Virus record (IMG/VR): IMGVR_UViG_3300050821_000967
Span: 1 to 24,316 of that record
Reading direction: 5' to 3' (one strand)
DNA length: 24,316 bases
DNA from: a virus
The notes below the pieces were generated by a model, which had not been told where the DNA came from, did no database searches, and saw only the letters and a list, made by a program, of their open reading frames with translations. A program made the translations under genes and the position numbers. Of the stretch, positions 1,077 through 20,754 are shown piece after piece. Each line of letters opens with the position of its first letter. Within the stretch, counting starts at the first letter, position 1.

Positions 1077-1088
1077 CGGGAGTTCCCC

Positions 1089-2078: not shown

Positions 2079-2079
2079 C

Positions 2080-3047: not shown

Positions 3048-3050
3048 TGA

Positions 3051-4763: not shown

Positions 4764-5131
4764 TGTCTGGTCTTTCTTCAATCGGCGAAGCGGACGTCAT
4801 TGCCGCGCTCACCACCAATGTCTGGGTGTCGTTGCACACTGCTGATCCTGGCAACACCGGCGCGAACGAGGTCGTCGGCGGCGCTTATGCGCGCCAGGGG
4901 CCGGTGGCGTTCGCCAATTCCGGTTTCAATCCGACCGTGGCCGCCAACACGTCGATCATCACTTATCCGGTGGCGACGGCGAACTATGGCACAATTAACT
5001 TCTTCAGTCTGTGGACGGCGGCGGCGGGCGGCAATTTTATTGGCTCCGGCCCGGTGCCATTTCCGATCCCAATCAATACCCAGGATAGCGCGCGGTTCTA
5101 TGCCCAGACGCTGACGGTGACGGTCGACTGA
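4763..5131 (+). CDS. Small beta-rich virion protein of the 'LHTADPG' tail-fibre-associated family
   Basis: This 122-aa protein carries a recognisable signature: VSLHTADPGNTGANEVVGG then AYARQ at about residues 22-45, a central ITYPVATANYGTINFF segment and a C-terminal SARFYAQTLTVTV strand. Proteins with this arrangement are widespread in tailed phages and are usually annotated as tail fibre or minor structural proteins; the exact role is unsettled. It is followed one base after its stop by the next structural gene and leads into the fibre/adhesin block. It overlaps the adaptor stop (TGATG). Confidence 0.75.
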   Translation: MSGLSSIGEADVIAALTTNVWVSLHTADPGNTGANEVVGGAYARQGPVAFANSGFNPTVAANTSIITYPVATANYGTINFFSLWTAAAGGNFIGSGPVPFPIPINTQDSARFYAQTLTVTVD

Positions 5132-5132
5132 G

Positions 5133-5942
5133 ATGTCCAACGGCGCGCCTACTGGGCCATCGCTACGGCCCCCGAGCACGACCAATTTAATCACGGACAC
5201 GTCGCTGCCGATTAATGCTTATGCTTATGGCGCCGGTGAACTGACTGCAATTGGGTTTACCCTTGGTAATAGTCAAATAGTTGGTCCAGATCCTTCGACC
5301 GGCCCGATGTGGTTTAACCAATTGGGTTGCATGGCCGGCCCTTCTACAAGGATAAACACCCCGACGAACGATGACGTTATTCCCAATCCTGGCGGGCCGG
5401 TCACGGTAACGCTCTATTCGCTCTATACTACAATCGCAGGAACTAACACGGTGGCGCAAGCCACCGTTGATCTAACCAACGCGACCGATGGTCAGTTCTG
5501 CTGGAGCGATGTGATTGAACCGTTCCAACTTTACGGCAGCGATTATTATGGACAACTTAATTTCACTATAACAATACAAACCAACGACCCTAATTATTGG
5601 TTCTATGGAAATCGCCCCTGTGTGGTGCGGAATGGCGTCAATTGGGGATATCAGGGTGGACCTACGGGTGATTGGATACGCGCCCAAGGCCCGGGCGTCG
5701 ACTGCAACTACGTCACCTACGCCGATGTTTCCGGCAATCTCGGGCCGAGCGTCGCGCTCAATGCCGATGTGCGCCGTCGCGGCGAGCTGCGCAAAAGCGC
5801 GCTCGTCCCGCAGGTGACGCTCGGTGGCGCGATCCGGCGCGCGGGCGAACTGAGGGGCGGTCTTGTCGTGCCGGCTATCGAATTGTCGGGCAATCTATCG
5901 GGCGGCCCGCTGTGGAAGCCTGCGCCGCTTTGCACGGGGTGA
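5133..5942 (+). CDS. Mosaic virion protein with C-terminal GELR repeats
   Basis: The protein has 269 aa. Residues 1 to about 190 form a Thr/Asn/Gly-rich beta-like region with several Cys and Trp residues that I do not recognise. Residues 211-254 hold two copies of a short repeat of the form (R)RxGELRxxLVxPxxxLxG. This repeat is common in phage structural proteins but has no assigned function known to me. The DNA of the first two thirds (about 5180-5680) is visibly richer in A/T, with more A/T wobble codons and weakly favoured codons, than the last third or the neighbours, which suggests an exchanged module. It sits just before the main tail fibre gene, the usual place for host-range exchange. 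A receptor-binding or decoration role is inferred. Confidence 0.65.
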   Translation: MSNGAPTGPSLRPPSTTNLITDTSLPINAYAYGAGELTAIGFTLGNSQIVGPDPSTGPMWFNQLGCMAGPSTRINTPTNDDVIPNPGGPVTVTLYSLYTTIAGTNTVAQATVDLTNATDGQFCWSDVIEPFQLYGSDYYGQLNFTITIQTNDPNYWFYGNRPCVVRNGVNWGYQGGPTGDWIRAQGPGVDCNYVTYADVSGNLGPSVALNADVRRRGELRKSALVPQVTLGGAIRRAGELRGGLVVPAIELSGNLSGGPLWKPAPLCTG

Positions 5943-5945
5943 GAG

Positions 5946-7994
5946 ATGGCTGACACGACCACTACCCATTACGGCTGGGTCAAGCCGGAAGTCGGGGCCA
6001 GCCCGACCACCTGGGGCGCGAAGCTCAACGCCGATCTCGACGCTATCGACGCCCAGGTCGCCTTCGCCTCCGCGAATACCGGCGGTATTGGCGACGCGCC
6101 CGCGGACGGCAACCTCTATGCGCGCGAGAACAACGCCTGGGCTGTGGTGCCGCCGCCGACTGGCGTTCCCGAAGCGCCGACCACCGGGCAGACTTTTGGC
6201 CGCAACAACGCCCAATGGGTGCAGATCCAGCCGAGCATAGTCAGCGAAGCGCCGCTTGATGGATTGCAATATGCCCGGCAGAGCGGGGCTTGGGCGGCGA
6301 TCGGGGCGGCTGAAGCCACCGGCGTCGAGGAAGCTCCGAACAACGGCGTTTCTTACGTTCGCAACAGCGAGGCGTGGACGCCGCTCGGCGGCCCTTATTT
6401 GCCGACAACGGGCGGCACCGTCACCGGGCCAGTCTTCATTCAAGGCAGCAATATGCTGGCTCTGACCGGCGCTGTTGGCGCTATTCGGTCCGTTCTCGGT
6501 GGGACCGGGGTGGGGACGATCAGTTATCGTTGGTCGCTAACGCTCGGCGATCAGACTGCCGAGAGCGGTTCGAACGCCGGGTCGAATTTCAGCCTTACGC
6601 CAATTTCTGATGCGGGCTCGTTTCTTCCGGTCGCCCTTTCGATCAATCGGGCGACCGGCGCGGCGACGTTCGGCAATCAGGTGACGATCAACAGCCCGAT
6701 CGGCAACACGCCTAATCTTCTGCTCAACAAGCCTTCGGCTGGCAGCGCCGCGATCATGGCGCAGACTTCCGCTGGGGTGCCGCGCTGGCAAATGCAGCTC
6801 GCCAACGTCAATGCCGAACTCGGGAACGATCTCGGCTCGAATTTCGAGCTCGATTTCTTCAGTGACGCCGGGACGAATAAGGGCGCGGCGCTCACCATCG
6901 CGCGTAACACTGGCGTGGCGACTTTCAGTTATGGCGTGACCGTCACTGGCTCCCTCAACGCCAATGGCGGGCTGGCGGTCAACGGCACGTTCGCCATCAG
7001 CATCGGCAATTTCATTCTGCTCGGCGGATCGAACGGGCAATTTCTGCAGACCAACGGCTCAGGCGTTCTGACCTGGGCCACGCCGGCCGGTGGTGGCGGC
7101 GGGATCCCGGAAGCGCCGACTGATGGGCAATTGTACGGTCGCGAGAACGCTGCTTGGGTGGTGGTTCCGACCGGCGGCGGGGGCGGTATCGCCGACGCGC
7201 CCAACGATGGCACGGCCTATGCGCGCAAGAGCGCGGCGTGGGCGCACCTCGCCCACACGGACATCACCGACTGGACAGCGACGCTCGCCAATTATTACCC
7301 GACCAGCAATCCGAGCGGCTACCAGACAGCGGCGCAAGTCACGGCGGTCCTTCCGGTCGCTTCGTCGACCACGCCTTCGATGGACGGAACGGCGGCGGTC
7401 GGAACCGGGACCACCTGGGCGCGCGCCGATCACGTCCATCCGAGCGACACGACGCGCTACGCGGCAAGCAACCCATCCGGCTATCAGACGGCGGCGCAAG
7501 TCACAGCGGCGGTTCCGGTCGCTTCTACCACGACGCCAGCGGCATTAGGCACGGCGGCGGTCGGCGTCGGAACGACTTGGGCGCGCGCCGATCACGTTCA
7601 CCCGTTGCCGACCTTGGCTTACGCCAATCTGCCGGCGGCGGTGCAGCAATTGCCGATCGCCTTTCCGTTTTCTGGTCAGCCAAGCGCGGGGCAGATCGTC
7701 ATTGTGCCGATGGCGATCGCCTGCACGGTCGCCGCCAATCTCGTTAACTCGCGCGGCTTCGCGGCGACGACCGCCACGTCGTCAGCGGCGTTCACGCTGG
7801 CCAGAATTCCACTCGGTTCGACCACCCCGACAACTATCGGCACGATCACTTTCGCCGCCGGGGCTTCGACGTCGACTTTCACCGGAGCCGGAGCCAGCTT
7901 TGCTGCCGGCGACGTGATGCGGCTTGTCGCCCCGGCGACGCAGGACGCCACTTTGGCCAACCTCGGGATTACCATTCTGGCGATGAGGACTTGA
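5946..7994 (+). CDS. Tail fibre with repeat modules
   Basis: This 682-aa protein is the main receptor-binding fibre candidate. The N-terminus ([20 protein letters not shown], 8-27, then NADLDAIDA) is a typical virion-attachment segment of phage fibres. Six copies of a repeat of about 20 residues, E/D-A-P-x-x-G-x-x-Y/F-x-R-x-x-x-A-x/Q-W, start near residues 50, 76, 101, 129, 389 and 417. A '[12 protein letters not shown]' fibre motif is at about 152. A tandem 54-aa repeat begins at residues 455 and 509, each copy ending in [11 protein letters not shown], a motif typical of fibre shafts. The C-terminal 110 residues are a beta-rich Thr/Ala-rich tip. There is no S74 chaperone here, but one is encoded at the end of the 11477-12880 gene. 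The SD is GGGGTGAGAG. Confidence 0.85.
7308..7631 (+). repeat. Tandem 162-nt repeat inside the tail fibre gene (two copies)
   Basis: Copy one begins at 7308 and copy two at 7470. Each is about 162 nt (54 codons) and in frame, and the spacing is visible from the paired segments encoding [13 protein letters not shown] and [11 protein letters not shown]. The copies differ at scattered, mostly synonymous or conservative positions, so the duplication is not recent. It lengthens the fibre shaft and could change by recombination. Confidence 0.8.
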
Positions 7995-7995
7995 G

Positions 7996-8274
7996 ATGCC
8001 TAGGGATTACATCGGCATCGTTATGCACGCCGCGAGCGGGCAGGTCGTCGTAGTGATCGACCCCGATGATGACAGCGAACTGGATGATCCGTGCTGGCAG
8101 GCGATAACTTGCACACTGCCTGAAGATCCTGTCGATCCCGAAGTTACGCCTTTGGCCGAAACGCTGCCGGTCGATGACGGGTCAACCTACATCGTCAAAG
8201 CGCCGCGCAGCAATTACGAAGATCCGTTGACCTTAGAGGATGTGGCGTATCTGGCTGAGTATTATTCATCGTGA
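7996..8274 (+). CDS. Small acidic protein, unknown
   Basis: The protein has 92 aa and is strongly acidic (IDPDDDSELDDP around residues 21-32), with a Pro/Glu/Asp-rich middle and a C-terminal LTLEDVAYLAEYYSS helix. I do not recognise the family. It starts one base after the tail-fibre stop and overlaps the next GTG start (GTGA), between two receptor-binding candidates. A fibre chaperone or assembly factor is possible from position and acidity, as with small genes next to other phage fibres, but nothing in the sequence proves it. Confidence 0.65.
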   Translation: MPRDYIGIVMHAASGQVVVVIDPDDDSELDDPCWQAITCTLPEDPVDPEVTPLAETLPVDDGSTYIVKAPRSNYEDPLTLEDVAYLAEYYSS

Positions 8275-9011
8275 CCCAGGTCTTTTTCACCTTCATTGGC
8301 AACACAAGTTGGCCCGCGCCTGCCGGGTGGCAAGACAGTGTTGCCGCCACCTATGAGGCTGTTGGGGCGGGCGGAAATGGCGGCCCTTTTTATTCCAATT
8401 TTCCCGGCCCCGGCGGCGGAGGTGGACAGTACGCGGCGGGTAGCGGGGCAATTCAGGCTGGTGGCAATTTTCCCCTTACGATTACCGTTGCGGCGGGCGG
8501 CTCGGGCAATCCAACGCGCATCGCGCTTTGGGGTGGAAGCTTTATGGCGAGCGCTCTCGCCGGGCAGAATGGCCTTACTTATACCGGAGGAGTGGGCGGC
8601 GGTGGTGGCGCCGGGTCGGGTGGCAATGGCGGCTCGACGAGCAGCGGCTTTACCGGCGGCGCCGGCGGCGGCGGCGCGGCTGGGCCCTCCGGCGCTGGCG
8701 GCACTGCTTTGGATGGTGGATTGAGTGCAAGCGCGGGCGGCAGGGCGAACGGCTCTGCTGGCGTTGCTGGCGGGGCCGTAGGGGCCGTAGGCGGCAATGG
8801 GACGGAATGGAATGCGAGTTTCGGTTGCGGCAGCGGTGGCGGCGGCGCAACTGGCAACAGTAATGGCGGCGCGGGCGGACGATACGGCGGTGGCGGTGGC
8901 GGCGCCGGTCCCACCAATAACAACTCTGCGCCCGGAGGCCAAGGCCTCGCTGTCATTACTTACACTCCGCTTGTTCCCGCCGTGGCTGGCGCAATCATCA
9001 TGGCGGAATGA
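8271..9011 (+). CDS. Glycine-rich adhesin-like tail protein
   Basis: The protein has 246 aa and a GTG start overlapping the previous stop (GTGA). The N-terminus (FFTFIGNTSWPAPAGWQDSV, 5-24) followed by 'YEAVGAGGNGG' is the pattern of the Gly-rich domain family (Gly_rich_2): a 'tfxaPaG' strand then a GxGGGG sheet-forming region. About residues 100-225 are dominated by GG/GGG/GGGG runs separated by short variable segments. By analogy with the polyglycine-II sandwich of T-even gp38 adhesins, this part could display variable receptor-binding loops. The C-terminus (GLAVITYTPLVP) closes the domain. The analogy with gp38 is inference. A 538-aa open frame on the opposite strand is a by-product of this composition. 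Confidence 0.75.
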   Translation: MTQVFFTFIGNTSWPAPAGWQDSVAATYEAVGAGGNGGPFYSNFPGPGGGGGQYAAGSGAIQAGGNFPLTITVAAGGSGNPTRIALWGGSFMASALAGQNGLTYTGGVGGGGGAGSGGNGGSTSSGFTGGAGGGGAAGPSGAGGTALDGGLSASAGGRANGSAGVAGGAVGAVGGNGTEWNASFGCGSGGGGATGNSNGGAGGRYGGGGGGAGPTNNNSAPGGQGLAVITYTPLVPAVAGAIIMAE

Positions 9012-10847
9012 ATGAGCACGCAATTCAGACCGCTTGAAATCCCGCCCGGCGTCCAATCGAAGCCGACGAAACAAATGCGCTCTTCGGCCTGGTCCGAGGT
9101 CAACCTGATGCGCTGGGTCGAGGGAGAGCTGCAGCCAGTCGGCGGCCAGTCGCAATACGACTACAGCGCCAGCAATGTAGCTTTCGCTTCGCCGATCCGC
9201 GCCATCCATTCTTGGTACGACCTTAACGGCGTTTTCTACATCGCTTATTTGTGCGAGAGCAATCTCTACATCGACATCGCCGGAACGTTGACCGACATCA
9301 CGCCGGTCGGCGGCATGACCCCGCCGCCACCCAATGTCGACAGCAATTATTCGGATGGCCTGTACAGCGCCGACGACTACAGCACCAACAATCCGATTCC
9401 GCCGATCAACAATCTGCCGAACGTGTGGAGCCTCGACAATTTCGGCCAGATTTTGTTGGCGATGACCTCGTCGGACGGGCGGCTTTTGCAATGGGATCCG
9501 GCGAGCGCCGTCGTCAACGTCTATCAGGACAGCATCTACAACGCGGCTGGCGTTGGCGCTCCCAGTCTCGATATGACCAGCGCGGTCCCGTCCACCGTGG
9601 TGCCGGGCCTGACCATCTTCAATCAGTCGGGCAATGTGGCGGTCGGCACGGTGGCGAGCGTCACCACCCCGGCGACGATCGTTTTGACCGGGCCTTCGAC
9701 CGGCGCTTGTCAGGCTGGCGACCTCTTGATTTTCAATTCCGAGAACGCCGCCAACGCGCAGGCGATTCCGGTCACCAGCAGCGACACCGGCACGGGTTTC
9801 GCCCCCAACGCGCGGATGTTCGTGGTGACGCAAGAACGTTTCGTGATGCTGTTCGCGACTTCGGGCGACGGCACGCAAAGCGGCGGCTCGTTCCGGCGCT
9901 TTTGCTGGTGCGATCAGGAGAATTTCAACGCCTGGGATTTCACCGACGTCGTTTCGCAGGCCGGCTATCTCGACATCGAGCCGGCGAGCCCGATCGTCTC
10001 TGCCAAGGCGACGCCGCAGGGCATTTTGTTCTGGACCGCGACGCGGACCTACATGTCCTCGTTTCTCGGCCTGCCCTACATCTACAATTACGTCGAGATC
10101 GCCAAGGCCTGCACGCCTTGGTCGCCGATGAGCGTCGCCTCGACCACAGTCTTGACGCTATGGATGAGCCAGCAAGGGATGTTCAGCTACAATGGCGCTT
10201 GGGTCGCCCCGATCCCGTGCTTAGTGCGCAATTGGATCAATGACGATATCGACGACAACATTGTCAGGCAGAAAGCGTTTGCCTGCAACGTCGCCAACTT
10301 CAACGAATTCTGGTGGTTTTTCCCGCAGGAAGGTCAATCCGCCAACACCCGGGTGGTGATCTACAATTACAAAGAGAATTGGTGGTCGATGGGCGCGATG
10401 TCCCGTTCGGCCGGCGTCACGGCGTCCTACACCACTCAGACGATCATGGCCGATGGGACAAACGTTTATCAGCACGAGCTCGGCAACGTCTATCCTAACA
10501 ACACGCCGTTGCCGTGGGCCGAGACGTTCGATCTCAATCTGAATTCCGGCTCGCGCTTGACCACGCTCAAGCAGATGATTCCGGACATCAATGGCGATGT
10601 GAACAATCTGCGTTATTCGGTCTTCTACCGCATGAGCCGCTCGGTGATGCCGGATCCGAACGGTTTTCCAACCTTAGTGGTCGAGCAGCAGACGGCGCCG
10701 CGCAAGGTCAACACCAATAACGGCTTCGTCGACTTCCGCACCACTGGCCGCGACATGCGGCTCAGGATTGCGCTCGCCGGTCCGCAGGTGAACTTCGTCA
10801 GCGTCGGCCAGCATCTGGTCGACAGCGTTGCGAGAGGAGATCGGTAG
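9012..10847 (+). CDS. Large tail hub / nozzle-like protein
   Basis: The 611-aa protein starts directly after the adhesin stop, opening with RPLEIPPGVQSKPTKQMRSS and then WSEVNLMRWVEGELQPVGG. I know this N-terminal signature from the large tail proteins of short-tailed phages with P22 gp10/T7 gp12-like roles. The repeated WDFTDV, FWTATRTYMSSF, WWFFPQEGQ and YNYKENWW segments look like blades of a beta-propeller. The length lies between P22 gp10 (472) and T7 gp12 (794). It would sit below the adaptor ring and hold the fibres, consistent with its place after them. The fold and role are inferred from pattern and context; no search was run. Confidence 0.7.
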   Translation: MSTQFRPLEIPPGVQSKPTKQMRSSAWSEVNLMRWVEGELQPVGGQSQYDYSASNVAFASPIRAIHSWYDLNGVFYIAYLCESNLYIDIAGTLTDITPVGGMTPPPPNVDSNYSDGLYSADDYSTNNPIPPINNLPNVWSLDNFGQILLAMTSSDGRLLQWDPASAVVNVYQDSIYNAAGVGAPSLDMTSAVPSTVVPGLTIFNQSGNVAVGTVASVTTPATIVLTGPSTGACQAGDLLIFNSENAANAQAIPVTSSDTGTGFAPNARMFVVTQERFVMLFATSGDGTQSGGSFRRFCWCDQENFNAWDFTDVVSQAGYLDIEPASPIVSAKATPQGILFWTATRTYMSSFLGLPYIYNYVEIAKACTPWSPMSVASTTVLTLWMSQQGMFSYNGAWVAPIPCLVRNWINDDIDDNIVRQKAFACNVANFNEFWWFFPQEGQSANTRVVIYNYKENWWSMGAMSRSAGVTASYTTQTIMADGTNVYQHELGNVYPNNTPLPWAETFDLNLNSGSRLTTLKQMIPDINGDVNNLRYSVFYRMSRSVMPDPNGFPTLVVEQQTAPRKVNTNNGFVDFRTTGRDMRLRIALAGPQVNFVSVGQHLVDSVARGDR

Positions 10848-11119
10848 TGGCCGCGCTCAACCCGACTCCGCAGACCGTTCAGCCGCCGCCATTGCCGCCG
10901 GGCATCGATCCCGCTACCGCGCTCTACCTGCAGCAATTCACCATGTGGTGTACGCGGCAGTTCAACAGCCGATTAAGTTCTAATACGGCGCTTCCAGGCG
11001 TCATGTTACAGGCCAATGATGCGCCCGCAGGCGCGACGCCGAAAGTTTTTCATGTTCAGGTCAAGAGCGACGGGACGGTAGTCGCCAATCCGATTGCGAT
11101 CGGGAGCGGCAGTCCGTGA
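10847..11119 (+). CDS. Small virion-module protein, unknown
   Basis: The protein has 90 aa and a GTG start sharing its first base with the TAG of the nozzle gene, with a strong GAGAGGAG SD. A Pro-rich N-terminus (TVQPPPLPPGIDP) leads to a helix (ATALYLQQFTMWCTRQF, 23-39), then a predicted beta segment containing LPGVMLQANDAPAG and KVFHVQVKSDGTV. I have seen similar short proteins in this position in alphaproteobacterial podophages, always unnamed. The function is unknown, possibly a minor tail component. It overlaps the next GTG start by 4 nt. Confidence 0.65.
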   Translation: MAALNPTPQTVQPPPLPPGIDPATALYLQQFTMWCTRQFNSRLSSNTALPGVMLQANDAPAGATPKVFHVQVKSDGTVVANPIAIGSGSP

Positions 11120-11475
11120 GCGCGCATCCCTACCACGCCAAGCTCGCGCGCCTGCTCGACCGGATGGGCGGCCTCTACCATGTGTCAGACATCTTGGCGG
11201 CGATCGCCGAGGGCCGGATGCAGAGCTTCGCCGAGGGTGACAGCTGGGCGATCACGCAGACGGTCCAGTTTCCCCGCGCCCGTCTGCTCGAAATTCTGAT
11301 TGCGCTTGGCGACATCGACGAGTGCCGTCGTTTGCATGATCGCATTTTACAATATGCCAACGCCAATGACATCGGCCTGGTTCAGGCTTACGGTCGGCGC
11401 GGGTGGCTCGATCACCCTTTGACCGAAGGCTGGAAGATTCGGACCAAGAGTTTCCTCTATCAACGCGAGCTCTAA
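11116..11475 (+). CDS. Small protein of probable GNAT-like fold, T7 gp13-like position
   Basis: The protein has 119 aa with a GTG start (GTGA overlap). It has a helical N-terminus (LDRMGGLYHVSDILAAIAEG, 14-33), then MQSFAEGDSWAITQT, FPRARLLEILIALGDID, a long helix (RRLHDRILQYANANDIGLVQ) and a C-terminal GRRGWLDHPLTEGWKIRTKS segment. This alternation, ending in a 'GRxGWxxxxxxxGWK' motif, resembles degenerate GNAT folds found among phage internal virion proteins such as T7 gp13. No clear acetyl-CoA-binding R/Q-x-x-G-x-G/A loop is visible, so enzymatic activity is doubtful. Its place before the internal-protein block supports a virion-assembly role. The assignment is tentative. Confidence 0.6.
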   Translation: MSAHPYHAKLARLLDRMGGLYHVSDILAAIAEGRMQSFAEGDSWAITQTVQFPRARLLEILIALGDIDECRRLHDRILQYANANDIGLVQAYGRRGWLDHPLTEGWKIRTKSFLYQREL

Positions 11476-11476
11476 G

Positions 11477-12880
11477 ATGGGCGGCTCAAGCACGACGGTT
11501 CAGCAGGGGTCTTCCCAGAGCACTAACGAGATCCCTCAATGGGTCCAAAACGCTGGGCAGCAGAATTATGGCTTAGCCCAACAAGTCGCCTCGCAGCCGT
11601 TGCAGCAATACCAGGGCCAGATGGTCGCGGATGTTTCTCCGCAAACACAACAAGCGTGGAACCTCGCCGCTAATTCAGGCAACGTAGGCCAGGACGCGCA
11701 GAACGCCGCGCAGGCGGGTTATCTCAATACGCTCGGCCAGACGCCGGCCCAGGTTAACGCCAGCACCTACAACCCGGCGCAATTGTCGAACACCAATCTT
11801 TCGCCGTACATGAACCCATACACCCAGAGCGTGATCAACGCGACGCTGCCGATCATGCAACAAAACTTAGGGTTGTCGCAGGACCAGAACCAGGACGCCG
11901 CGGCCTCGGCTAACGCCTATGGCGGCTCGAGACAGGCGATGCAGCAGGGCGTCACCCAAGCGCAGGGCGCGCTCGGCATGGGCCAGATGGCGGCGCAGTT
12001 GAACCAGGCCAACTACGGTCAGGCGCAGCAGGGGGCGCTCAGCGACGTCGCGGCGCAGAATGCGGCCAGCCAGTTCAACGCCGGGGCGCAAAACACCGCG
12101 CAGGCGCAAAACCAAGCTGCAGGATTGAGTCAGGAGCAATTGGTCAATCAGGCGTCGCAGGGGCTGGGCACGCTCGGCACTCAGCAAATGCAAAACAACA
12201 TCGCCAATTACGGCATGCTGACCTCGGCCGGCGGCTTCGAGCAGCAGCAGGCGCAGAACGACATCAATGCTCAGATGGCTAAGTTCCAGCAGGCTTTTCA
12301 ATACCCGCAGCAGCAGCTCGGGATGATGGAGAGCGCGCTCGGCATGACCCCTTACGACACCGGGACGTCGGGCACCTCGTCCTCGACTACCACTCAGACC
12401 CAGTCGAATCCGATGGCCGCGGCGCTCGGCGGCATGCAGACGCTTGGCGGGCTGTTTTCGGGCGGCAGCGGCGCCGGCGCGCTTACCGGCCTGCTCGGCC
12501 TCTCCGATCGCCGATTGAAGACCGACGTCGTCAAGATCGGCAAGCACCCGACCGGCATCGACATGTACGCCTATCGGTACAAGGGCGACCCCAAGCACTA
12601 CCCGAAAGTGGTAGGCCCGATGGCCGAGGACGTGAAGAAGATCGCGCCGCACGCGGTGCGCCAGGTGACTTCGAAGGGGCACATGGCCGTGCACATGGAC
12701 ATGCTGAACGCGCTCGCCCCTTCGTCGCCAGGGGTGGCGAAGGCGATCGGGATACTCAAACAGAGCCCCCAGCCCGGAGGAGCCCTGTCGCCTGACGCCA
12801 CCCCGCCGTCGCGCGGGATTCTTTCGAGTGGGAAACTGCGCGCGCCGGGAGCTCCAATCATAGGGGCCCTCGGTGGCTGA
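11477..12880 (+). CDS. Gln/Ala/Asn-rich virion protein with C-terminal S74 intramolecular chaperone domain
   Basis: The protein has 467 aa. Residues 1 to about 300 are unusually rich in Gln, Asn and Ala, with helical heptad-like stretches and no fibre repeats. A Gly-rich linker (about 315-340) leads to LSDRRLKTDV, where Ser343 begins the Peptidase_S74 / endosialidase-type chaperone signature. MYAYRYKGD and VVGPMAEDVKKIAPHAV follow. In characterised S74 proteins the Ser of this motif is where the trimerisation chaperone cleaves itself off. The remaining 125 residues match a complete small S74 domain plus a tail. S74 domains normally cap fibres, so a long internal-protein-like body is unusual. 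It may be a trimeric needle or an ejected rod. The S74 call is strong; the body's role is unknown. Confidence 0.75.
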   Translation: MGGSSTTVQQGSSQSTNEIPQWVQNAGQQNYGLAQQVASQPLQQYQGQMVADVSPQTQQAWNLAANSGNVGQDAQNAAQAGYLNTLGQTPAQVNASTYNPAQLSNTNLSPYMNPYTQSVINATLPIMQQNLGLSQDQNQDAAASANAYGGSRQAMQQGVTQAQGALGMGQMAAQLNQANYGQAQQGALSDVAAQNAASQFNAGAQNTAQAQNQAAGLSQEQLVNQASQGLGTLGTQQMQNNIANYGMLTSAGGFEQQQAQNDINAQMAKFQQAFQYPQQQLGMMESALGMTPYDTGTSGTSSSTTTQTQSNPMAAALGGMQTLGGLFSGGSGAGALTGLLGLSDRRLKTDVVKIGKHPTGIDMYAYRYKGDPKHYPKVVGPMAEDVKKIAPHAVRQVTSKGHMAVHMDMLNALAPSSPGVAKAIGILKQSPQPGGALSPDATPPSRGILSSGKLRAPGAPIIGALGG

Positions 12881-13706
12881 CAACCCCTACGCGCCGTCGA
12901 ATCTCGCCGCCCCGCCGGCTCGCCCGGTCACGCCGACGCCGCCTGCGCCGGCGACTTCGACCACCTATGCGCCGTCGTTCAACATCAAGTCGGCTCTCGT
13001 CAATGCTGGCATGACGCCAGGCGACGCGACCACGCTGACTGCGGTCAGCGGCGCGGAGAGCAATTTTGGCAAGAACCCGGTCAGTCCTCCCAATAAGAAC
13101 GGGAGCCGTGACTACGGCGTCTTCCAGATCAACGACAAAGCCTGGCCTCAGTTCGGTGGTCCCAAGGTCGCCACGCTGCCGCTTGATCAGCAGGCGGCGT
13201 TCGCCGCCCACATCTGGAATACGCAGGGGCCGAAGGCCTGGTCGACTTACACCAGCGGAGCTTACAAGAAATTCCTCAATGGCGCAGACGCTGCGACAGC
13301 GACAGCTCCGAGCTCGCCGGCCGCCGTGGCCGCCGCCAATGCGCCGCCCGCGAACATCGGCACGGCGCTCGCGGCGCTAACCCAGCCGGGCGAGGGCGGA
13401 ACCAAGTCCACGATGGATAATCTACAGTCGACTTTCGCGGGTGGGGGAGAGTCGGCTCCGGCGCCGATGAACCTCGAGGGGCAGCAGGCGGCTTCCGCGA
13501 TGGGCAACGCGCGCCAGGCGCAGATCGCCGCCATGGCCCCGCAGTTGATGATGCAAGCGCGGCAGATGGGCGGGCTGCAGGGCGCTCGAGGCGCGCCGAG
13601 CCTGGGCTCGACTATGGGCTATCAGGGCGGCCAGATGATGCCGATGGCGACGGCGGCGCCGACGCCGGGCACAACATTGAATTCCACAGGAGCGTTATAT
13701 GGCTAG
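12873..13706 (+). CDS. Virion-associated lytic transglycosylase (SLT/lysozyme-like)
   Basis: The protein has 277 aa with a GTG start overlapping the previous gene by 8 nt. After a Pro/Thr-rich leader, residues 36-135 form a lysozyme-like transglycosylase domain. TTLTAVSGAESNFG (53-66) carries the catalytic Glu62, SRDYGVFQIN (78-87) is the G-x-x-Q-I-N motif, and the domain ends with the W-x-x-Y-x-x-G-A-Y-K-K-F-L pattern common to this phage enzyme family. About residues 140-277 are Ala/Gln/Met/Gly-rich and end in PGTTLNSTGALYG. Such enzymes are carried in the virion and open the peptidoglycan for DNA entry. Its place among internal proteins supports this over a lysis role, which the GH19 enzyme fills. 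Confidence 0.8.
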   Translation: MADNPYAPSNLAAPPARPVTPTPPAPATSTTYAPSFNIKSALVNAGMTPGDATTLTAVSGAESNFGKNPVSPPNKNGSRDYGVFQINDKAWPQFGGPKVATLPLDQQAAFAAHIWNTQGPKAWSTYTSGAYKKFLNGADAATATAPSSPAAVAAANAPPANIGTALAALTQPGEGGTKSTMDNLQSTFAGGGESAPAPMNLEGQQAASAMGNARQAQIAAMAPQLMMQARQMGGLQGARGAPSLGSTMGYQGGQMMPMATAAPTPGTTLNSTGALYG

Positions 13707-14463
13707 TGGCGACGATCCGCTTGCCGACTATCAGAACATGCTCGGCCTGCAAGGGCTCACGGGTCCGAACCCCTATCTTCAGTTCACCGGGCAGATCCCG
13801 ATGGCCGGCTTTATGGGCGCGCCGACCAACGCTTCGGGTCAGCCGATCCAGAGCTTCACGGACACCCAGAACGCTTCGAACGCCTGGAACGCCGCTAATC
13901 CCGCGCCTGGCACGACGTTAAACACCAGCGGCGCGGTCGCTTCGACCGCCAATCCGTTCGCCGGCATTCAAGAGCCGCAAGGCATGAACACCGCCTCGAC
14001 GGAGCCCCGCGGCGGTTTGAGCCTGGCGCAATGGAACGCGCTGTCGGGGCCGCAGAAGGCTTCCCTTTACGGCCCGCAAGGAATTGTCGGTTACAGCAAC
14101 CAGACCGACCAGGGTCACGGCTTTGGCTCGGACTACGAGCCGATTTACGGCTCGATGCAGCCACAGGCGCAGACCCAAGCTGCGCCGGCTGCGGCGCCGG
14201 CGCCCACCAATCCCTACAACATGCGCCAGGCTTATCTCGACGCCCTTTCCAACCCGGGCCATGTGGCCACGCCGGGGGCGCAGATGCTGCCCGGCACGTC
14301 GCCGACTGGGCCGATCGGGTCGAACCAGCAACCGAGCGTGCTGCAGGCCTTCCTGGCTCAGCATCCGTCCGGAGGGACGGCGATTCCCGGCGGATATTCC
14401 AACAAGAGCTTCTTTAATACTTTGAACCAGCTGCAATCGGCCAAGCCGGGGGCGACCACATGA
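13699..14463 (+). CDS. Low-complexity virion-module protein, unknown
   Basis: The protein has 254 aa. The ATG at 13699 overlaps the preceding gene by 8 nt and has a clear AGGAG SD. It is rich in Gly, Pro, Gln, Asn and Ser with no catalytic or membrane motif. Residues 68-77 (APGTTLNTSG) repeat the C-terminal motif of the transglycosylase just upstream (PGTTLNSTGA). A helical segment NMRQAYLDALSNPG (about 174-187) and a C-terminal FFNTLNQLQSAKPG segment are the most structured parts. It is probably a minor or internal virion protein by position. The shared motif suggests that the two coding regions once formed one gene or share a docking peptide. Confidence 0.6.
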   Translation: MASGDDPLADYQNMLGLQGLTGPNPYLQFTGQIPMAGFMGAPTNASGQPIQSFTDTQNASNAWNAANPAPGTTLNTSGAVASTANPFAGIQEPQGMNTASTEPRGGLSLAQWNALSGPQKASLYGPQGIVGYSNQTDQGHGFGSDYEPIYGSMQPQAQTQAAPAAAPAPTNPYNMRQAYLDALSNPGHVATPGAQMLPGTSPTGPIGSNQQPSVLQAFLAQHPSGGTAIPGGYSNKSFFNTLNQLQSAKPGATT

Positions 14464-14565
14464 TGATCACCCCCTCTTTGCTTTGCTGGGCTACGCTGAG
14501 CGTTGCTCTGCTAAGCACTGCAATGCTTAGCTGGGCTAAGCTCCGCTGTGCGGGAGCATCATAAC
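14464..14565 (+). other. Structured intergenic element with competing hairpins
   Basis: This is the only sizeable gap in the virion block. It contains the heptamer gctaagc at 14510-14516, its exact reverse complement gcttagc at 14525-14531, and gctaagc again at 14535-14541. The middle copy can pair with either neighbour, giving an 8-bp stem with a 6-nt loop (14510-14531) or a 7-bp stem with a 3-nt loop (14525-14541). A 13-nt near-direct repeat (gctgggctacgct 14485-14497; gctgggctaagct 14530-14542) brackets it. No U tract follows, so a classical terminator is unlikely. The SD of the next gene (GGGAG, 14552-14556) lies just downstream, so a translation or processing role is possible. Confidence 0.6.
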
Positions 14566-15936
14566 ATGATCGGTGCGGAACTGTTAAATCTTTTGTACGG
14601 TAATCCGTACTCGCAACTGGCTGGGGCGATGAACCCCGCGCCGCAGCCGGCGCCCAATCCCAATCCGAACGCGCCGCCCTCGCGCGCGCCGGCGCCCGCG
14701 GTGGTTGGCCCGAACGCTTTGGGCTCGAATGTTCCTCCGTCGATGCAGCGTCCTGTAGGGGGTCCGGTCCCAGCGCCTCCAGGAGCCCCGCAAACGCCCC
14801 CTGGAGCCCCGCCTTCTCCGGCAGGCCCTCCACCCCCTCCACCGATGCAGCAAGGCCTGCCGCCGACCGCGGCGACCCAATCGCCGCCGGATCTGGCGAA
14901 CCTGTACCTGCAGATGGAGCAGCGCAACCGCTCGGCGAACGAGATCGACCACGGGCTCAGCCTGATGGCGGCCTCGATGTCGACCCCCTCGATGGCCAAC
15001 GCGATCATGGGCTCGCAGCGCCAAGGGCAGGATCCCGGCGCGCAGCTGGGCAATCTGATCATGCTGCAGAACATGCAACGGATGCAGAGCATCCCGGCCC
15101 CGCAGGGGCTCGACCCGACCACTTGGGCTGCGCTACCGCCCGATGCAAAAACGAAGTACATCGAAGCGCAGGGCGCGGCGAATATTGACATCAGCAAAGA
15201 GGGCGCGCTCACCAAGCAGAAAGACCTGCAAGAGGCGCAGCAGAAAGCGCCAACCGCGCTCGCTCAGATGGGCGATATGGACAAGCTGGCCGGCTCGATC
15301 TCCTCAACCCAAAACGCCGATGGCTCGCCTGCACTGCAAAGTATTCTTGGCAGCGATCGGAAAATCGCGGCGGCTAGGGAGTTGATGCAGGACGATCCTG
15401 GCCTGATGGGAACTGGCAGAACGTTGCTCGCACAAGGTCAACTGAGCACCCAGGAACAGGCCGTGCTGCAGAACATCAAGCAACTTAAAGGCCAGGTCTA
15501 CGGTGATATTTTCACCGCGGCGGGTTCGAAGCGCACTGGGACGGAAATCAAGAATGTTCAGGAAGGCCTTAGCCCGCTGATGAATTTCAATCAGGGCTAC
15601 GACGCCTACATGAAGCAGTTCGGAACTTTCCAGAACACATTGCACAAGAGCATCGCCAACACTTACGGCGCGGCGGGGCGGGTGGACGAGATCCCCGACA
15701 GCATGAGATGGGACACCAGCGATCCCAATAATCCAAAGCCGTTGGTGGACTCGACTTATCTGCCGAACGGCAGTCTCTACGCGGGCGGCGGCCAATGGGC
15801 GAGCAACCCGCCGAAGGCGCAGGGCGGGGGCGCTCCGTCCTCCGCGGTCGCCTACCTGAAGGCTAACCCCAATCTGGCGGCGCAGTTCGACGCCAAATAT
15901 GGAGCAGGCGCGTCGAAGGCCGCCCTGGGGCAATAA
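14566..15936 (+). CDS. Probable internal virion protein, Pro-rich N-terminus
   Basis: The protein has 456 aa. I prefer the ATG at 14566, with a GGGAG SD 9 nt upstream, over an in-frame GTG at 14548. Residues about 22-105 are Pro/Ala-rich and disordered. The rest is mostly helical with Gln, Met and Ala (LYLQMEQRNRSANEI, then SMSTPSMANAIMGSQRQG). The C-terminus VAYLKANPNLAAQFDAKYGA is a short helical motif I know from the ends of large phage internal proteins. No enzyme motif is visible. Its position between the transglycosylase and the Gly/Ala-rich protein fits a set of proteins ejected with DNA. The role is inferred. Confidence 0.65.
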   Translation: MIGAELLNLLYGNPYSQLAGAMNPAPQPAPNPNPNAPPSRAPAPAVVGPNALGSNVPPSMQRPVGGPVPAPPGAPQTPPGAPPSPAGPPPPPPMQQGLPPTAATQSPPDLANLYLQMEQRNRSANEIDHGLSLMAASMSTPSMANAIMGSQRQGQDPGAQLGNLIMLQNMQRMQSIPAPQGLDPTTWAALPPDAKTKYIEAQGAANIDISKEGALTKQKDLQEAQQKAPTALAQMGDMDKLAGSISSTQNADGSPALQSILGSDRKIAAARELMQDDPGLMGTGRTLLAQGQLSTQEQAVLQNIKQLKGQVYGDIFTAAGSKRTGTEIKNVQEGLSPLMNFNQGYDAYMKQFGTFQNTLHKSIANTYGAAGRVDEIPDSMRWDTSDPNNPKPLVDSTYLPNGSLYAGGGQWASNPPKAQGGGAPSSAVAYLKANPNLAAQFDAKYGAGASKAALGQ

Positions 15937-17312
15937 TGGCCAACCCGTTCGACCAGTTCGACGCTACGGCTGCCCCGGCGGCAGGCAATCCGTTCGACCA
16001 GTTCGACGCTAAGGCTAAAACAGCGACCGCCAAGCCGGGGCCTGACTTCTCCGCTTCGAATCCAGCCACCTGGGCGCTCGCCGGTCTCGATTCGGCAGGC
16101 ATGGGGCTCGGGACCAAGAATCCGTTCATGACTATGCCGCCTCAACTGAGCCAGGACGTCGCCGCGGCGCATGAAGGGCTCGGTTGGATGGATTATCCGC
16201 TCTCTGCCGCGGCCTATGCTGTGGGGCCGGGCAAGGTCCTCGGACCTGCGGGCAAGATGATCGGCGGCGCCGGGATCGGCGGCACGGTGGCTGAGGGCGC
16301 GCTTGCGGGTGGAGCGAGCAGCGCCATAGCCGACCCGACTAATGTCGGCGGCATTGTAGGAGGCGCGGTGACCGGCGGCGCGCTGGGCGCGGCTGCGCAT
16401 GGCCTCACCAAAGGCGTGAATACCGGCTTGAGTAAGTTTTACGGCAAGGAAGGGAGCATCGACCCGCAGGCCGCGATCGCCGCCACCAAGGCGGCGCGCG
16501 ACGAGGCCTATGCGCCGCTGAAGGACATCGCCTTCAACCCCAGCGACGTGCTCAACGCCCACACCGGCGTGACGCTCACTCCTGGCATGGCGGCCGACGT
16601 CACCTCGGGCATGCAGAGCATGCTCGGCAAGCAGCGCGACGCGATCCAGAGCGGCGGTAATACAGCCAACGACATCGCCGACTATATGACCAATCTGAAG
16701 TCGGTCAGCGGCTCTCCGAGCGCGAGCAACGGCGACAAACTGCTCGCCGGGCAGACCGCCAGCAATCTGAGCGATCTACTCACCAACGCCAATCCGATCA
16801 CCGATCACGCGCCAGGCGAGGCGGCGCAGACGTTGCAGCAGGCTCAAGCTGCGCATCAGCAGTACATGATGGCGCAGAACCTGGCCGAGTGGCAGCGCAT
16901 GAATGCGGGTAGCGTTCCGCTTGGCCAAGCGCCCTTCACTGAGGCTGAGAAATATTACCAGGGCCAGAGCCCGGACGCCCTTCAGAACTACAAGGCCTTG
17001 ATTGATTTGTACAAGAAAAGCTCGAACCAAAACGATCCCAGTTGGGCGCTGGGGCACATGGCGTCCCATGCGGCTGGAATGGCTGGCGGAATGATGTTTG
17101 GCTTCCCAGGTGAATTTCTTGGGGAGGCGGCTGGCTATCTAGGGATTAAACCTGCCGTCAAAGGGGTGTTCAAAGGCATGAAACAGGACGCCGTGGGAAG
17201 GGCTCTTCAGCAGGCCTACCCACAATTGACCGGGCAGCAACTCACGGGCGCGCAGCCCGGCCCGCAGGTTGGCGATCTGATCAAGAATCTGACGCTGGGC
17301 AGCGCCTATTAA
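15936..17312 (+). CDS. Putative DNA-ejection / internal virion protein with duplicated NPFDQFDA motif
   Basis: The protein has 458 aa and shares the last base of the previous stop (TAATG). The N-terminus contains NPFDQFDA twice (3-10 and 18-25). This motif is frequent at the ends of phage ejection and large virion proteins and may be a docking peptide. Residues about 85-140 alternate Gly, Ala, Ile and Val (GKMIGGAGIGGTVAEGAL, GGIVGGAVTGGALGAAAHG) like membrane-inserting segments of ejection proteins. Helical Gln/Asn-rich segments follow, and a second Gly/Met-rich hydrophobic patch (MASHAAGMAGGMMFGFPGEF) lies near 375-395. It is the last gene of the block. A channel-forming role is inferred from composition. 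Confidence 0.7.
   Translation: MANPFDQFDATAAPAAGNPFDQFDAKAKTATAKPGPDFSASNPATWALAGLDSAGMGLGTKNPFMTMPPQLSQDVAAAHEGLGWMDYPLSAAAYAVGPGKVLGPAGKMIGGAGIGGTVAEGALAGGASSAIADPTNVGGIVGGAVTGGALGAAAHGLTKGVNTGLSKFYGKEGSIDPQAAIAATKAARDEAYAPLKDIAFNPSDVLNAHTGVTLTPGMAADVTSGMQSMLGKQRDAIQSGGNTANDIADYMTNLKSVSGSPSASNGDKLLAGQTASNLSDLLTNANPITDHAPGEAAQTLQQAQAAHQQYMMAQNLAEWQRMNAGSVPLGQAPFTEAEKYYQGQSPDALQNYKALIDLYKKSSNQNDPSWALGHMASHAAGMAGGMMFGFPGEFLGEAAGYLGIKPAVKGVFKGMKQDAVGRALQQAYPQLTGQQLTGAQPGPQVGDLIKNLTLGSAY
15945..16010 (+). repeat. 45-nt tandem repeat encoding NPFDQFDA twice
   Basis: A 22-nt segment starting at 15945 (ccgttcgaccagttcgacgc plus ta) recurs exactly at 15990, a 45-nt (15-codon) period. The identity extends through synonymous positions, so the duplication looks recent compared with the divergent fibre repeats. 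It doubles a short terminal motif of the ejection-protein candidate. Confidence 0.85.
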
Positions 17313-17606: not shown

Positions 17607-18245
17607 TCAGACGAGCGCGTTCCTTCTTCGGAAGCCCATCAACCCCATGAGGCCGAAGCCTAGCGCCAACATCGCCCAAGTGGAAGGCTCGGGCACGTTG
17701 GTGGTCAGCTGGGTCGAGCCGCCGAACGACTGACGCGGCGCGGTGAAGTCGACGGCGAATTGGATCTCGTCATTGGTGAACGGGCCAGTTGCTGACGAAA
17801 CCGGACCAAAAGAGCCGTCAAGCAACGCAGCGGGGAACGTGTGCGTAGCGAGCAGGGCGCCATCGGCGAACGTGCTCTCCGTCGTCGGGCCGGGATCGTT
17901 GGTCAAACCATTGACCGTGAACGTGGAGAGCGTGTTGCCGAGCCCGCTGATGGCGCTTTGCAGCACGTCGATGGTTAGTGTGTGCGCGCCGGTAAAGCCC
18001 GCCGATGCGGTGGCGTCGAGCGTAACGGCTGACAGATCGGCATTCGGTAGGATGGGCGAGCCTTGCGCGTTGATGGTGATGTTGGCGAAGTTTGCGTCAT
18101 TGGCCGTGAGGCTCGCCGCGCCGGTGGTGATCCCGGTGACGTTGTCGATGAGCGCGCCATTGTCGAACACTTCGATCTGTAGCGTCGCCTTGGCCGGCAG
18201 CGTCAGCAGCGCGAGCGCGGCGGTCGTTAATAGCAATTTTCGCAT
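17607..18245 (-). CDS. Secreted PEP-CTERM (PEPxxWA type) sorting-signal protein
   Basis: The 212-aa protein has a classic Sec signal peptide (MRKLLLTTAALALLTLPAKA, with an A-x-A cleavage site at 18-20). The mature region is Thr/Ser/Asn/Ala-rich, has no Cys and is probably beta-sandwich. The C-terminus is a complete tripartite exosortase signal: VPEPSTWA (184-191), a hydrophobic helix (about 191-205) and RRR at 206-208. In bacteria this signal directs cleavage and transfer by exosortase/EpsH at the envelope, and carriers are often surface or biofilm proteins. The host would have to supply the exosortase. It sits in the middle of the phage operon with a GAGGG SD. The sorting call is strong; the biological role is unknown. 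A surface-modifying moron gene is one inference. Confidence 0.85.
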   Translation of the reverse strand: MRKLLLTTAALALLTLPAKATLQIEVFDNGALIDNVTGITTGAASLTANDANFANITINAQGSPILPNADLSAVTLDATASAGFTGAHTLTIDVLQSAISGLGNTLSTFTVNGLTNDPGPTTESTFADGALLATHTFPAALLDGSFGPVSSATGPFTNDEIQFAVDFTAPRQSFGGSTQLTTNVPEPSTWAMLALGFGLMGLMGFRRRNALV

Positions 18246-18263
18246 TTTTGAGTCCCTCTTCGA

Positions 18264-18506: not shown

Positions 18507-18666
18507 GTTTTCGATCCCTCAGAGCGTCCGCCACTTTCCTGGCCATATCGCCCAGCGGCTGCATCTGTCGCAGGCAATATTTGACCCCGTCCCGGTAGCC
18601 CCAGAAATACGAAGCGATCATCAAAACGCTGACGACCGCCGCGATGACGAGGTTCTCCCAGTTCAT
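18499..18666 (-). CDS. 55-aa single-pass membrane microprotein
   Basis: The minus strand reads ATG at 18666 to TGA at 18499-18501. The product has MNWENLV then a hydrophobic helix (about 6-22, IAAVVSVLMIASYFWGY), followed by a charged amphipathic C-terminus (PLGDMARKVADALRDRKRD). The start overlaps the helicase stop (ATGA) and the stop overlaps the next gene by 8 nt, so the frame closes the gap exactly in the operon style. This tiling is the main evidence that it is real. Its opening residues match those of the 43-aa protein at 20744-20875 (MNW plus a helix). The function is unknown. Confidence 0.7.
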   Translation of the reverse strand: MNWENLVIAAVVSVLMIASYFWGYRDGVKYCLRQMQPLGDMARKVADALRDRKRD

Positions 18667-20072
18667 GCGGGCGCCGCGGTCTTGAGATTGCGGAAAACCG
18701 ACTGGTAGAGGCGCTCTTTTCGTTGCAAAGCTTTGACGATGCGGCGATCGAGCGCCGAACCGGAAAGGTCAATGTACGAAACGTATTCGCCCGTCTGGCC
18801 GCGGCGATGGATGCGGTCTTCGACCTGGTCGCGGGTGTCGGCCGAGTAGGAATTCTCGAAGAAGATCATGGTGCGGCACTTGTCCTCCTCGACGTTGACG
18901 TCGCCAAGCAAGGTGTGGCCATATTTCGACGCCTCGGCTTGTAGGAGGATGATCCGGCAATGGGGGTCGTTGTTGAACCTGGCCTTTTGCTCCTCGACGT
19001 CGTCGGGATTCATTCGGCCGCGGATCCAGGCGGGATCGTATTTTGTCAACGCTTTCAGAAGCAGATCGAAGACCGGCCGATGGCGGTAAACGATACAGAC
19101 CTTGCCCTCGACCTCATCGTCAAGAATCTGTTTGAGCAGTTGGAGCCGGGGATTCTCGCTCGGCTTCACGAGCTCGTGAACATCACCGGATTCGTCATAT
19201 ACGAAGCCCGTCTGGATTTGGGCCAGTTTCTCATATTTGGCGATTGCGACGTCGACCGTGACGACCCCGCGTTCGATCTCGACTAGGAACTGATGTTCCA
19301 TTTGGCTGTACTGAGCGAGTTGCGCGGTCGACATCTGATAATCGCGAATGGTCGGGCTCTTGCGCGGCAGATCCGGGAGCCAATCTGCCTTCTTCGCCTG
19401 AAACACCGCCGGGGCCATGATGCGAGCGAGCACCTCGGCGTTCTTCTCCGCGATCACCTCTTTGTTTTGCCACCCGCCCATGATGCAGAACGCGCCGCGG
19501 AAGGCGTAGAAATTGCGATCGGTGAATAGATCGATAGCGCGCAATTGCCCCCACAAGTCTTGCGGGCCTTGGGTTTGCGGGCGTCCGGTGAGCAGGCGCT
19601 TCCAGTAGCAGACGGCCGCCAGGCGGTGGACCGCCTTGGTTTGGTTGGATCGGTGCCCCTTGATCTGAATCGATTCGTCGATCGCCAGATACGTCTTGCC
19701 GACCGCCGCCCACTTGACGATCGCAGTCAAGACGCCTGGCCTGCGCAAAGCCTCATAGTTCACGATCAGGATCGCCGGCGCATTGTGGCCCTGGCGAGCA
19801 AGAAACCGCTGCGCCTCCTCTTTTTTCGAGGATTGAAAGACGTGGAAACTGAAGCTGAAACCATGCTTTTCGATCTCGTCGACCCAGCCTTGCTTGAAGG
19901 TGTTGGGGGCGACGACGATCATCTTGTCGGCCTGGCCGAGGCCCTGGTACCACGAGTATTCGGTCAACGCGCACAGCGTCTTTCCCAAACCTTGTTGGAG
20001 AAACCAGCCGACACCTGGCTTGTCCCTGGCGAAATCCAGGGCCGCGATCTGGACCGGGTCAAGCGCGCTCAC
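18663..20072 (-). CDS. SNF2-type superfamily 2 helicase/ATPase
   Basis: This 469-aa ATP-dependent translocase is probably used in DNA replication, recombination or transcription-complex remodelling. The motifs are in order: Q-motif-like PVQIAALDF (6-14); Walker A GLGKT (28-32); motif Ia VVAPNTFKQGW (53-63); Walker B DES (132-134, where DEAH is common in SNF2 proteins); motif III LLTGRPQTQ (160-168), then DLWGQL; and a C-terminal RecA-like domain with VCIVYRHR, ILLQAEASKYGHTLLG and motif VI QVEDRIHRRGQ (416-426). The length equals the two-domain core without accessory domains, as in many phage SNF2 proteins. It starts with GTG overlapping the alpha-CTD-like gene (GTGA), so the two are coupled. 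An antidefence role cannot be excluded. Confidence 0.88.
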   Translation of the reverse strand: MSALDPVQIAALDFARDKPGVGWFLQQGLGKTLCALTEYSWYQGLGQADKMIVVAPNTFKQGWVDEIEKHGFSFSFHVFQSSKKEEAQRFLARQGHNAPAILIVNYEALRRPGVLTAIVKWAAVGKTYLAIDESIQIKGHRSNQTKAVHRLAAVCYWKRLLTGRPQTQGPQDLWGQLRAIDLFTDRNFYAFRGAFCIMGGWQNKEVIAEKNAEVLARIMAPAVFQAKKADWLPDLPRKSPTIRDYQMSTAQLAQYSQMEHQFLVEIERGVVTVDVAIAKYEKLAQIQTGFVYDESGDVHELVKPSENPRLQLLKQILDDEVEGKVCIVYRHRPVFDLLLKALTKYDPAWIRGRMNPDDVEEQKARFNNDPHCRIILLQAEASKYGHTLLGDVNVEEDKCRTMIFFENSYSADTRDQVEDRIHRRGQTGEYVSYIDLSGSALDRRIVKALQRKERLYQSVFRNLKTAAPA

Positions 20073-20368
20073 TTATCCGTTCTCGCTGTTTTGATTTCTT
20101 CGATGGCTTCCCGCACTTCAGCCAAAGAGCGTTTGCCAAAATTAGGTATTCTCAACAATTCCCTATCCGCGGCGTCGTCTATATCTCCAGCAGTTTCGTA
20201 ATCAAGCTTGAGACAATTTTCGGAGCGGACGCTGAGGTACATTTCCGACAGAGGCGTCAAGCGCCAGGAAGGCGATTCCTTGGCGGTGAACTCGCTCTGC
20301 TTGATTGCGCGCCACAGATACCGGAGCTCAAGGTCCGTTGAACAGTGCGGGCATCGGATGATGATCAC
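20069..20368 (-). CDS. Stand-alone RNA polymerase alpha C-terminal-domain-like protein
   Basis: The protein has about 99 aa. I prefer the GTG at 20368 because it overlaps the previous TGA (GTGA); a GTG at 20380 adds 4 residues. After a RCPHC knuckle (C6, C9), residues 44-93 align by eye with the E. coli RpoA CTD. LSVRSENCLK matches LTVRSANCLK, and LLRIPNFGKRSLAEVREAI matches LLKTPNLGKKSLTEIKDVL. Residues equivalent to R265, N268, C269, G296, S299 and E302, which contact DNA in the UP element, are all kept (R48, N51, C52, G78, S81, E84); K298 is Arg (R80). The alpha N-terminal assembly domain is absent. It could bind DNA or compete for alpha-CTD partners, altering host transcription, but this is inference. 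The helicase follows, translationally coupled. Confidence 0.82.
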   Translation of the reverse strand: MIIIRCPHCSTDLELRYLWRAIKQSEFTAKESPSWRLTPLSEMYLSVRSENCLKLDYETAGDIDDAADRELLRIPNFGKRSLAEVREAIEEIKTARTDK

Positions 20369-20754
20369 TTCTTCTTCCACTTGCCATCATTGGCGTGCTC
20401 GAGCACGCCATATTTGCGCAGTTCCTCGAGCCGCGAAGTAACGGAATTGCCGGAGTAACCGGCGGCCACAATTGCGGGCGCCATCTCGACCGCGCGCTTC
20501 GGCCCAGTGGAGAGCTCCGTCATAATGAGGCCGTTGATGCCCTTCTTCAGATTCGGGCCTGGCGAGGGGCGTTTGTTGATCTGGCGCTTGGGTTTGTCTG
20601 ATCCCAGCTTTCTGACTTGAGCTTCAAGATCAAAGCGCGGAGTTTTGTCGAGCACCTCTTCGACCGACAGGTTCTCGATCGGCAGCATCTTCGCCATCAG
20701 GCCGAACAGCGTCTCGCCATCGATGGTGAGGCCGATCCGGAATTTAACAGTCAT
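20365..20754 (-). CDS. Protein with N-terminal unknown domain and C-terminal winged helix
   Basis: The protein has 129 aa and an AAGGA SD upstream of the ATG. Residues 1-45 (MTVKFRIGLTIDGETLFGLM and on) look like a small alpha/beta unit. A basic linker with KPKRQINKRPSPGP follows. The C-terminal 60 residues (helix GINGLIMTEL, then VAAGYSGNSVTSRLEELRKYGVLEHAN) fit a winged helix whose recognition helix is NSVTSRLEELRKYG. The same overall layout appears in the 22360-22725 gene. It probably binds DNA or RNA and may regulate the operon. It directly precedes the alpha-CTD-like gene. Confidence 0.65.
   Translation of the reverse strand: MTVKFRIGLTIDGETLFGLMAKMLPIENLSVEEVLDKTPRFDLEAQVRKLGSDKPKRQINKRPSPGPNLKKGINGLIMTELSTGPKRAVEMAPAIVAAGYSGNSVTSRLEELRKYGVLEHANDGKWKKK

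Follow-up and report, generated by a model that had tools for sequence, protein, structure and literature searches.

Bacterial PEP-CTERM proteins combine an N-terminal signal peptide, a mature part low in Cys and high in Thr/Ser/Asn, and a C-terminal PEP motif followed by a hydrophobic helix and a basic end; they cross the inner membrane, with EpsH/exosortase as the presumed cleaving enzyme, and are associated with exopolysaccharide (Haft 2006, PMC1569441). Their cargo is diverse and without known homology, and phages are not mentioned in that description (PMC1569441). In Zoogloea, PEP-CTERM proteins keep exopolysaccharide on the cells, and loss of their expression releases it into the medium (PMC9012009). 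The GlyGly-CTERM/rhombosortase and MYXO-CTERM/myxosortase systems share the tripartite layout of motif, helix and basic end. Phage surface proteins for superinfection exclusion, Llp of T5 for example, are either lipoproteins or membrane proteins, and we know of none that uses a C-terminal sorting protease. Our full-text literature search returned no paper describing phage-encoded exosortase substrates.

Here, we analyzed one IMG/VR virus record of 24,316 bases (the window) and identify from its sequence a gene whose product is a PEP-CTERM cargo protein, a claim limited to the cargo and not extended to a sorting system. The first-pass annotation had placed a complete PEP-CTERM protein at this locus, which is confirmed by an exact minus-strand open reading frame, a signal peptide, a Cys-free Thr-rich part and a tail matching PF07589 (Table 1). 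Like its bacterial counterparts, the protein has a signal peptide, little Cys, abundant Thr/Ser/Asn, a PEP motif, a helix and a basic end, and its cargo lacks known homology. It differs from them in three respects: the phage carriers possess no exosortase, phage records hold one or two PEP-CTERM proteins where bacterial genomes hold many different ones, and no sigma-54 site of the kind seen with host PEP-CTERM genes lies upstream of the window gene (6.63 of 10 matches versus 6.78 in shuffled sequence).

Table 1. Coordinates of the PEP-CTERM gene, its parts and the genes at the edges of its slot in the window.
Feature	Position	Strand	Basis
PEP-CTERM cargo gene, 212 aa plus stop, ATG start	17607..18245	-	Profile matches and homologues
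Putative Sec signal peptide, residues 1-20, AKA cleavage site	18186..18245	-	Sequence
Mature domain, residues 21-183, Cys-free, Thr-rich, strongly conserved	17697..18185	-	Composition, selection, AlphaFold model
PEPSTWA motif, residues 185-191	17673..17693	-	Profile match; pN = 0
Hydrophobic C-terminal helix, residues 192-205	17631..17672	-	Sequence; model helix 187-211
Basic cluster RRR, residues 206-208, then NALV	17622..17630	-	Sequence; PF07589 match 17622-17696
Ribosome-binding-site-like GAGGG, 8 nt 5' of ATG	18254..18258	-	Sequence
SNF2-type helicase, 5' edge of PEP slot	18663..20072	-	phrog_62, E 9e-89; slot survey
Convergent late gene (cluster c7), other edge of PEP slot	15936..17312	+	Neighbourhood and slot survey

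The predicted signal peptide, MRKLLLTTAALALLTLPAKA, is followed by T, with AKA directly before TLQIEVFDNG, and no further membrane segment was found, the structural model having one N-terminal and one C-terminal helix. The tail, VPEPSTWAMLALGFGLMGLMGFRRRNALV, includes VPEPSTWA, the hydrophobic helix and RRR, and scored 35.0 bits against PF07589 (cut-off 20.7) and 24.3 against TIGR02595 (cut-off 16); a six-frame search gave 39.1 bits for PF07589 in the window (E 2.9e-11) and no match in 14 control genomes. The alphaproteobacterial PEPxxWA variant, NF035944, reached 32.2 against a cut-off of 35, and other PEP proteins in virus records reached 38.3 and 42.4. The best whole-protein NCBIfam match was the FxDxF family PEP-CTERM (NF038126; 39.3 bits, residues 43-207), which lies under its cut-off of 50 and owes much of its score to the tail, and the protein does not belong to that family by this measure. 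As in bacterial PEP-CTERM proteins (PMC1569441), mature residues 21-183 are poor in Cys (0%) and Lys+Arg (0.6%) and enriched in Thr (16.0%), Ser (8.0%) and Asn (7.4%), compared to 0.6% Cys, 8.6% Lys+Arg and 6.9% Thr in the other proteins of the window. No promoter or terminator of its own scored above chance for the gene; AGAGGGAC, resembling the GAGGG of the window, precedes the gene start in two relatives (L003 and L016).

Plus-strand genes of the window (3-17312) encode structural and lysis functions, including a scaffold, major head protein, virion proteins, an ejection protein and a GH19-like lysin, and a minus-strand block running from 24316 to 17607 holds the SNF2-type helicase as well as small genes of a regulatory or nuclease-like kind. 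The PEP gene is the final gene of this block and converges with the late structural genes. The "early operon" of the first-pass annotation is thus a plausible reading for the minus block and holds for the clade of the window, but not elsewhere, where the gene sits among late genes (between TerL and portal, portal and capsid, or tail fibre and lysin). Being early in one clade and late in others, the position gives no clear hint of purpose. An origin from a host flank or mis-assembly was excluded, as phage genes lie on both sides in many independent contigs, and the PEP gene is phage DNA. The same block also encodes an RNA polymerase alpha C-terminal-like domain (20069-20380, minus strand; PF03118, E 1.8e-13), which perhaps redirects host transcription.

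One scan of viral contigs recovered close relatives in ~66 IMG/VR contigs, mostly at 75-90% identity, including a tier at 54-58% (L061-L063), with more distant relatives at ~31%; the mature part alone recovered the same set. Genes in these contigs were called with a simple codon-usage caller. PE[PASTL]xTW is kept in 61 of the 62 members with a complete end (47 PEP and 14 PEA/PET/PES/PEL, all then followed by TW), the sole exception, L058, bearing another type of tail. Concern that relatives in other phages might lack the PEP motif therefore proved unfounded. All 62 ends have at least two basic residues, and A-x-A precedes [TG][LIV] in 60 of 62 family members. In pairwise counts, pN/pS was lowest in the motif (0) and the mature part (0.17) and higher in the signal peptide (0.48) and in the helix and end (0.65), with omega of 0.06-0.16 between unrelated phages. 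These ratios show strong purifying selection on the mature part and the motif, a pattern indicating that fold and motif are selected and that helix and tail need only keep their character. A chance motif is ruled out by the ~66 homologues, the mature pN/pS of 0.17 and the motif pN of 0. The family was absent from 50,697 phage records and from PHROGs, so the view of the first-pass annotation that phage use of this pathway would be unusual is correct for sequenced cultured phages (0 of 50,697 records), but not for soil virus contigs, in which it is common.

We surveyed the slot behind the helicase in contigs with a related helicase, counting those where the helicase was at least 65% identical and enough sequence lay beyond it. 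One or two PEP-CTERM genes occupied the slot in 27 of 30 such contigs of the window's clade, and none in the other three (L247, L249, L254). Homologues with the mature domain of the window do sit in the same operon slot of other phages (17 of the 30), and in 10 the mature domain is distant or unrelated (L229, L232, L233, L236, L237, L238, L239, L246, L250, L262). The slot is therefore more conserved than its cargo, as would be expected if display by sorting signal matters and the displayed domain is exchangeable. No contig with a helicase at most 57% identical had a PEP-CTERM gene in the slot. Among cultured phages, the closest is Ochrobactrum phage vB_OspP_OH, at 65% for the major head protein and 43.5% for the helicase, and it too has no gene between helicase and convergent gene. 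Two PEP-CTERM genes with different mature parts, in tandem or close together, occur behind the helicase in five contigs of the window's clade (L075, L236, L238, L239, L262), and also in L077 and L078. In more diverged phages, two further mature families are represented by PEP-CTERM genes on the upstream side of the helicase (L294:1356 and L297:1153).

We propose that the protein is probably a phage cargo that is sorted to the outside of the infected cell by a C-terminal sorting enzyme of the host; host, processing, location and purpose are what we infer from the features above and from the bacterial systems. The signal peptide would direct export through Sec, and the C-terminal helix and RRR would anchor the protein in the inner membrane so that the PEP motif faces the periplasm, where host exosortase would cut at the motif and the mature domain would be released from or attached to the cell exterior, its destination being, by the PEP-CTERM/EpsH model, in or on the exopolysaccharide layer. 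The AlphaFold model of this domain is a 12-strand beta sandwich (mean pLDDT 79.7), whose closest folds are carbohydrate-binding and adhesin sandwiches at Z 7-9 (maximum 9.2), values that unrelated sandwiches also reach; the predicted likeness to glycan-binding or adhesin domains is weak and not specific. The part under selection is the cargo domain together with the address motif. Several extracellular domains would be interchangeable as cargo, this one among them, and the tail would suit the sorting enzyme that the host has. Altering or masking the surface or exopolysaccharide of the infected cell might block further adsorption or keep progeny from being trapped on debris. Superinfection-exclusion proteins are likewise small, envelope-exported phage proteins encoded apart from virion genes, a likeness that applies to the window's clade and to export as predicted here. 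We offer superinfection exclusion or exopolysaccharide masking as the likeliest specific purpose, a tentative suggestion that may well prove wrong.

The protein could alternatively act as a decoy that floods exosortase with substrate, so that host PEP-CTERM proteins and exopolysaccharide attachment fail and the matrix is loosened for phage release. PEPSTWA is indeed the most conserved piece, and the Zoogloea phenotype (PMC9012009) shows that exopolysaccharide is freed when PEP-CTERM expression is lost, but a decoy would not need a conserved cargo, yet mature omega is 0.06-0.16 across unrelated phages, and entire cargo domains replace one another in the slot. We therefore consider a decoy unlikely.

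Close relatives of the gene occur in at least nine, about ten, genome backgrounds with few or no common neighbor genes, which we labeled A to J by shared neighbors. In A, the window type, the PEP gene lies behind the helicase; in B it lies between portal and capsid, in C between tail fibre and GH19-like lysin, in D between terminase (TerL) and portal, and in E it converges with a primase; F to J are smaller types. Mature parts are up to 97% identical across backgrounds, carrier G+C content ranges from 0.40 to 0.66, and PEP genes of 55% G+C occur inside phages of 40%. The gene tree has 17 background changes for the ten backgrounds against a minimum of 9, indicating repeated movement between phage lineages, with several of its forks weak. 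A mobile gene with conserved flanks was rejected, as flanking DNA differs across most backgrounds; the common stretch is thus the open reading frame only. Taken together, the many unrelated soil phages with the same tagged protein, and the swapping of protein or tag among related phages, suggest routine phage use of a host surface-sorting machine. Should this be true, a sorting system deemed a matter of bacterial exopolysaccharide also serves many phages that look lytic, and the tail on a phage's cargo protein gives a clue to the sorting enzyme, and hence the host, that the phage uses. Immediately 5' of the PEP gene, backgrounds A, C, D, H and J have a gene for a proline-rich protein that contains PGQGLPGQRPP repeats (cluster c37; no PHROG match; L027:2326-2604 and L046:4909-5415; also L013, L018, L024, L030, L034, L038, L039 and L045), a possible partner gene.

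The positions in backgrounds B and C could also speak for a virion or lysis component, either a membrane-tethered lysis helper or a decoration acquired by the particle on release. This is quite improbable given that in the window's clade the gene is the final one of the early block and lies a long way from the lysin, that slots vary among backgrounds, and that virion parts are not known to end in a PEP-CTERM tail. Anti-defence or toxin loci likewise show exchange of cargo within a conserved slot, and the mature domain might be a secreted antagonist against neighbors or envelope defence proteins rather than a surface coat; NCBIfam, Pfam and PHROGs, however, returned no catalytic motif, toxin or defence family, and we give this reading very little weight. 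Passive hitch-hiking of a host PEP-CTERM gene occasionally acquired without benefit to the phage has in its favor how abundant such proteins are in likely hosts (one Bradyrhizobium genome has 28), but is scarcely credible given strong purifying selection, slot retention, neither many disrupted copies nor omega near 1, and no bacterial copy of the mature domain in 397 + 385 (782) sampled genomes, a search run without a positive bacterial control, or above 29% among the matches listed for genome_contigs, where a rare host copy could be missed.

The L058 locus (L058:1339-1995) encodes the mature domain of the window but ends in VPGPVVGAGLPG, a helix and TRRK; its contig, the same as L393, is a type-B phage that shares 98% capsid protein identity with L037. 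A motif scan for VPGP[IV][VA]GAGLPG found at least 120 stretches, with dozens of virus contigs represented (L319-L398, e.g., L322, L326, L350 and L376). Tail statistics were read from virus contigs and seven bacterial sites, 81 matches among those listed: 80 lay at most 50 residues from the C terminus, nearly all with a hydrophobic stretch and arginines after them, and a signal-peptide-like start was present in 70 of the 81 open reading frames. At least five mature families carry both PEP and VPGPxxGAGLPG tails, namely those of the window, L297, L294, L246 and L075/L078, the families of L294 and L297 being mostly VPGP-tailed elsewhere. The layout parallels that of the GlyGly-CTERM and MYXO-CTERM tails, but the motif differs: no model in NCBIfam, Pfam or PHROGs exceeded its cut-off, the best NCBIfam scores being 12.8 against 27 for PVV-CTERM and 12.2 against 20 for MYXO-CTERM, and "GAGLPG" was absent from the relevant papers in the full-text search.

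Within one alphaproteobacterial family, the VPGP motif occurred in 3 of 249 genomes (5, 1 and 1 copies), and those three, possibly incomplete, gave no exosortase or PEP-CTERM match, and a Bradyrhizobium genome with exosortase and its 28 PEP-CTERM matches had no VPGP tail. These three genomes hint, short of proof, that the VPGP tail may belong to another sorting enzyme. It is an even call, in our judgment, whether soil phages share an interchangeable surface-display cassette of unrelated cargo and a tag matched to the host protease, with at least two tags employed, PEP-CTERM for hosts that have exosortase and VPGP[IV][VA]GAGLPG for hosts that lack it, implying an undescribed sorting protease. 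That the same cargo occurs either with the PEP tail or with another conserved tail points to an additional sorting signal that has no name so far, and to a protease that acts on it.

No exosortase was found in 37 phage records, which are thus not self-contained PEP-CTERM/exosortase systems, and the host enzyme would be needed. The dependence on host exosortase that had been proposed at the outset is the only ready route, with cleavage itself a prediction from the motif. Exosortase was present in 8 of 10 alphaproteobacterial genomes holding similar tails, and the relatives of two background types are Rhizobium and Caulobacter phages; together with the Ochrobactrum phage, these relatives point to probable alphaproteobacterial hosts. 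Lysogenic conversion was rejected: integrase occurred in 2 of 31 records, one of which (L074) is probably bacterial DNA with several PEP genes. Given this near-absence of integrases, the protein should act within one lytic cycle. Homology searches with the lysin gave mostly 40-46% matches, which were not informative about the host. The GH19-like lysin itself (2382-3047, plus strand) is 73-82% identical to lysins of otherwise unrelated PEP-carrying phages (L004, L013, L030, L034 and L057), which suggests that these phages may have hosts in common.
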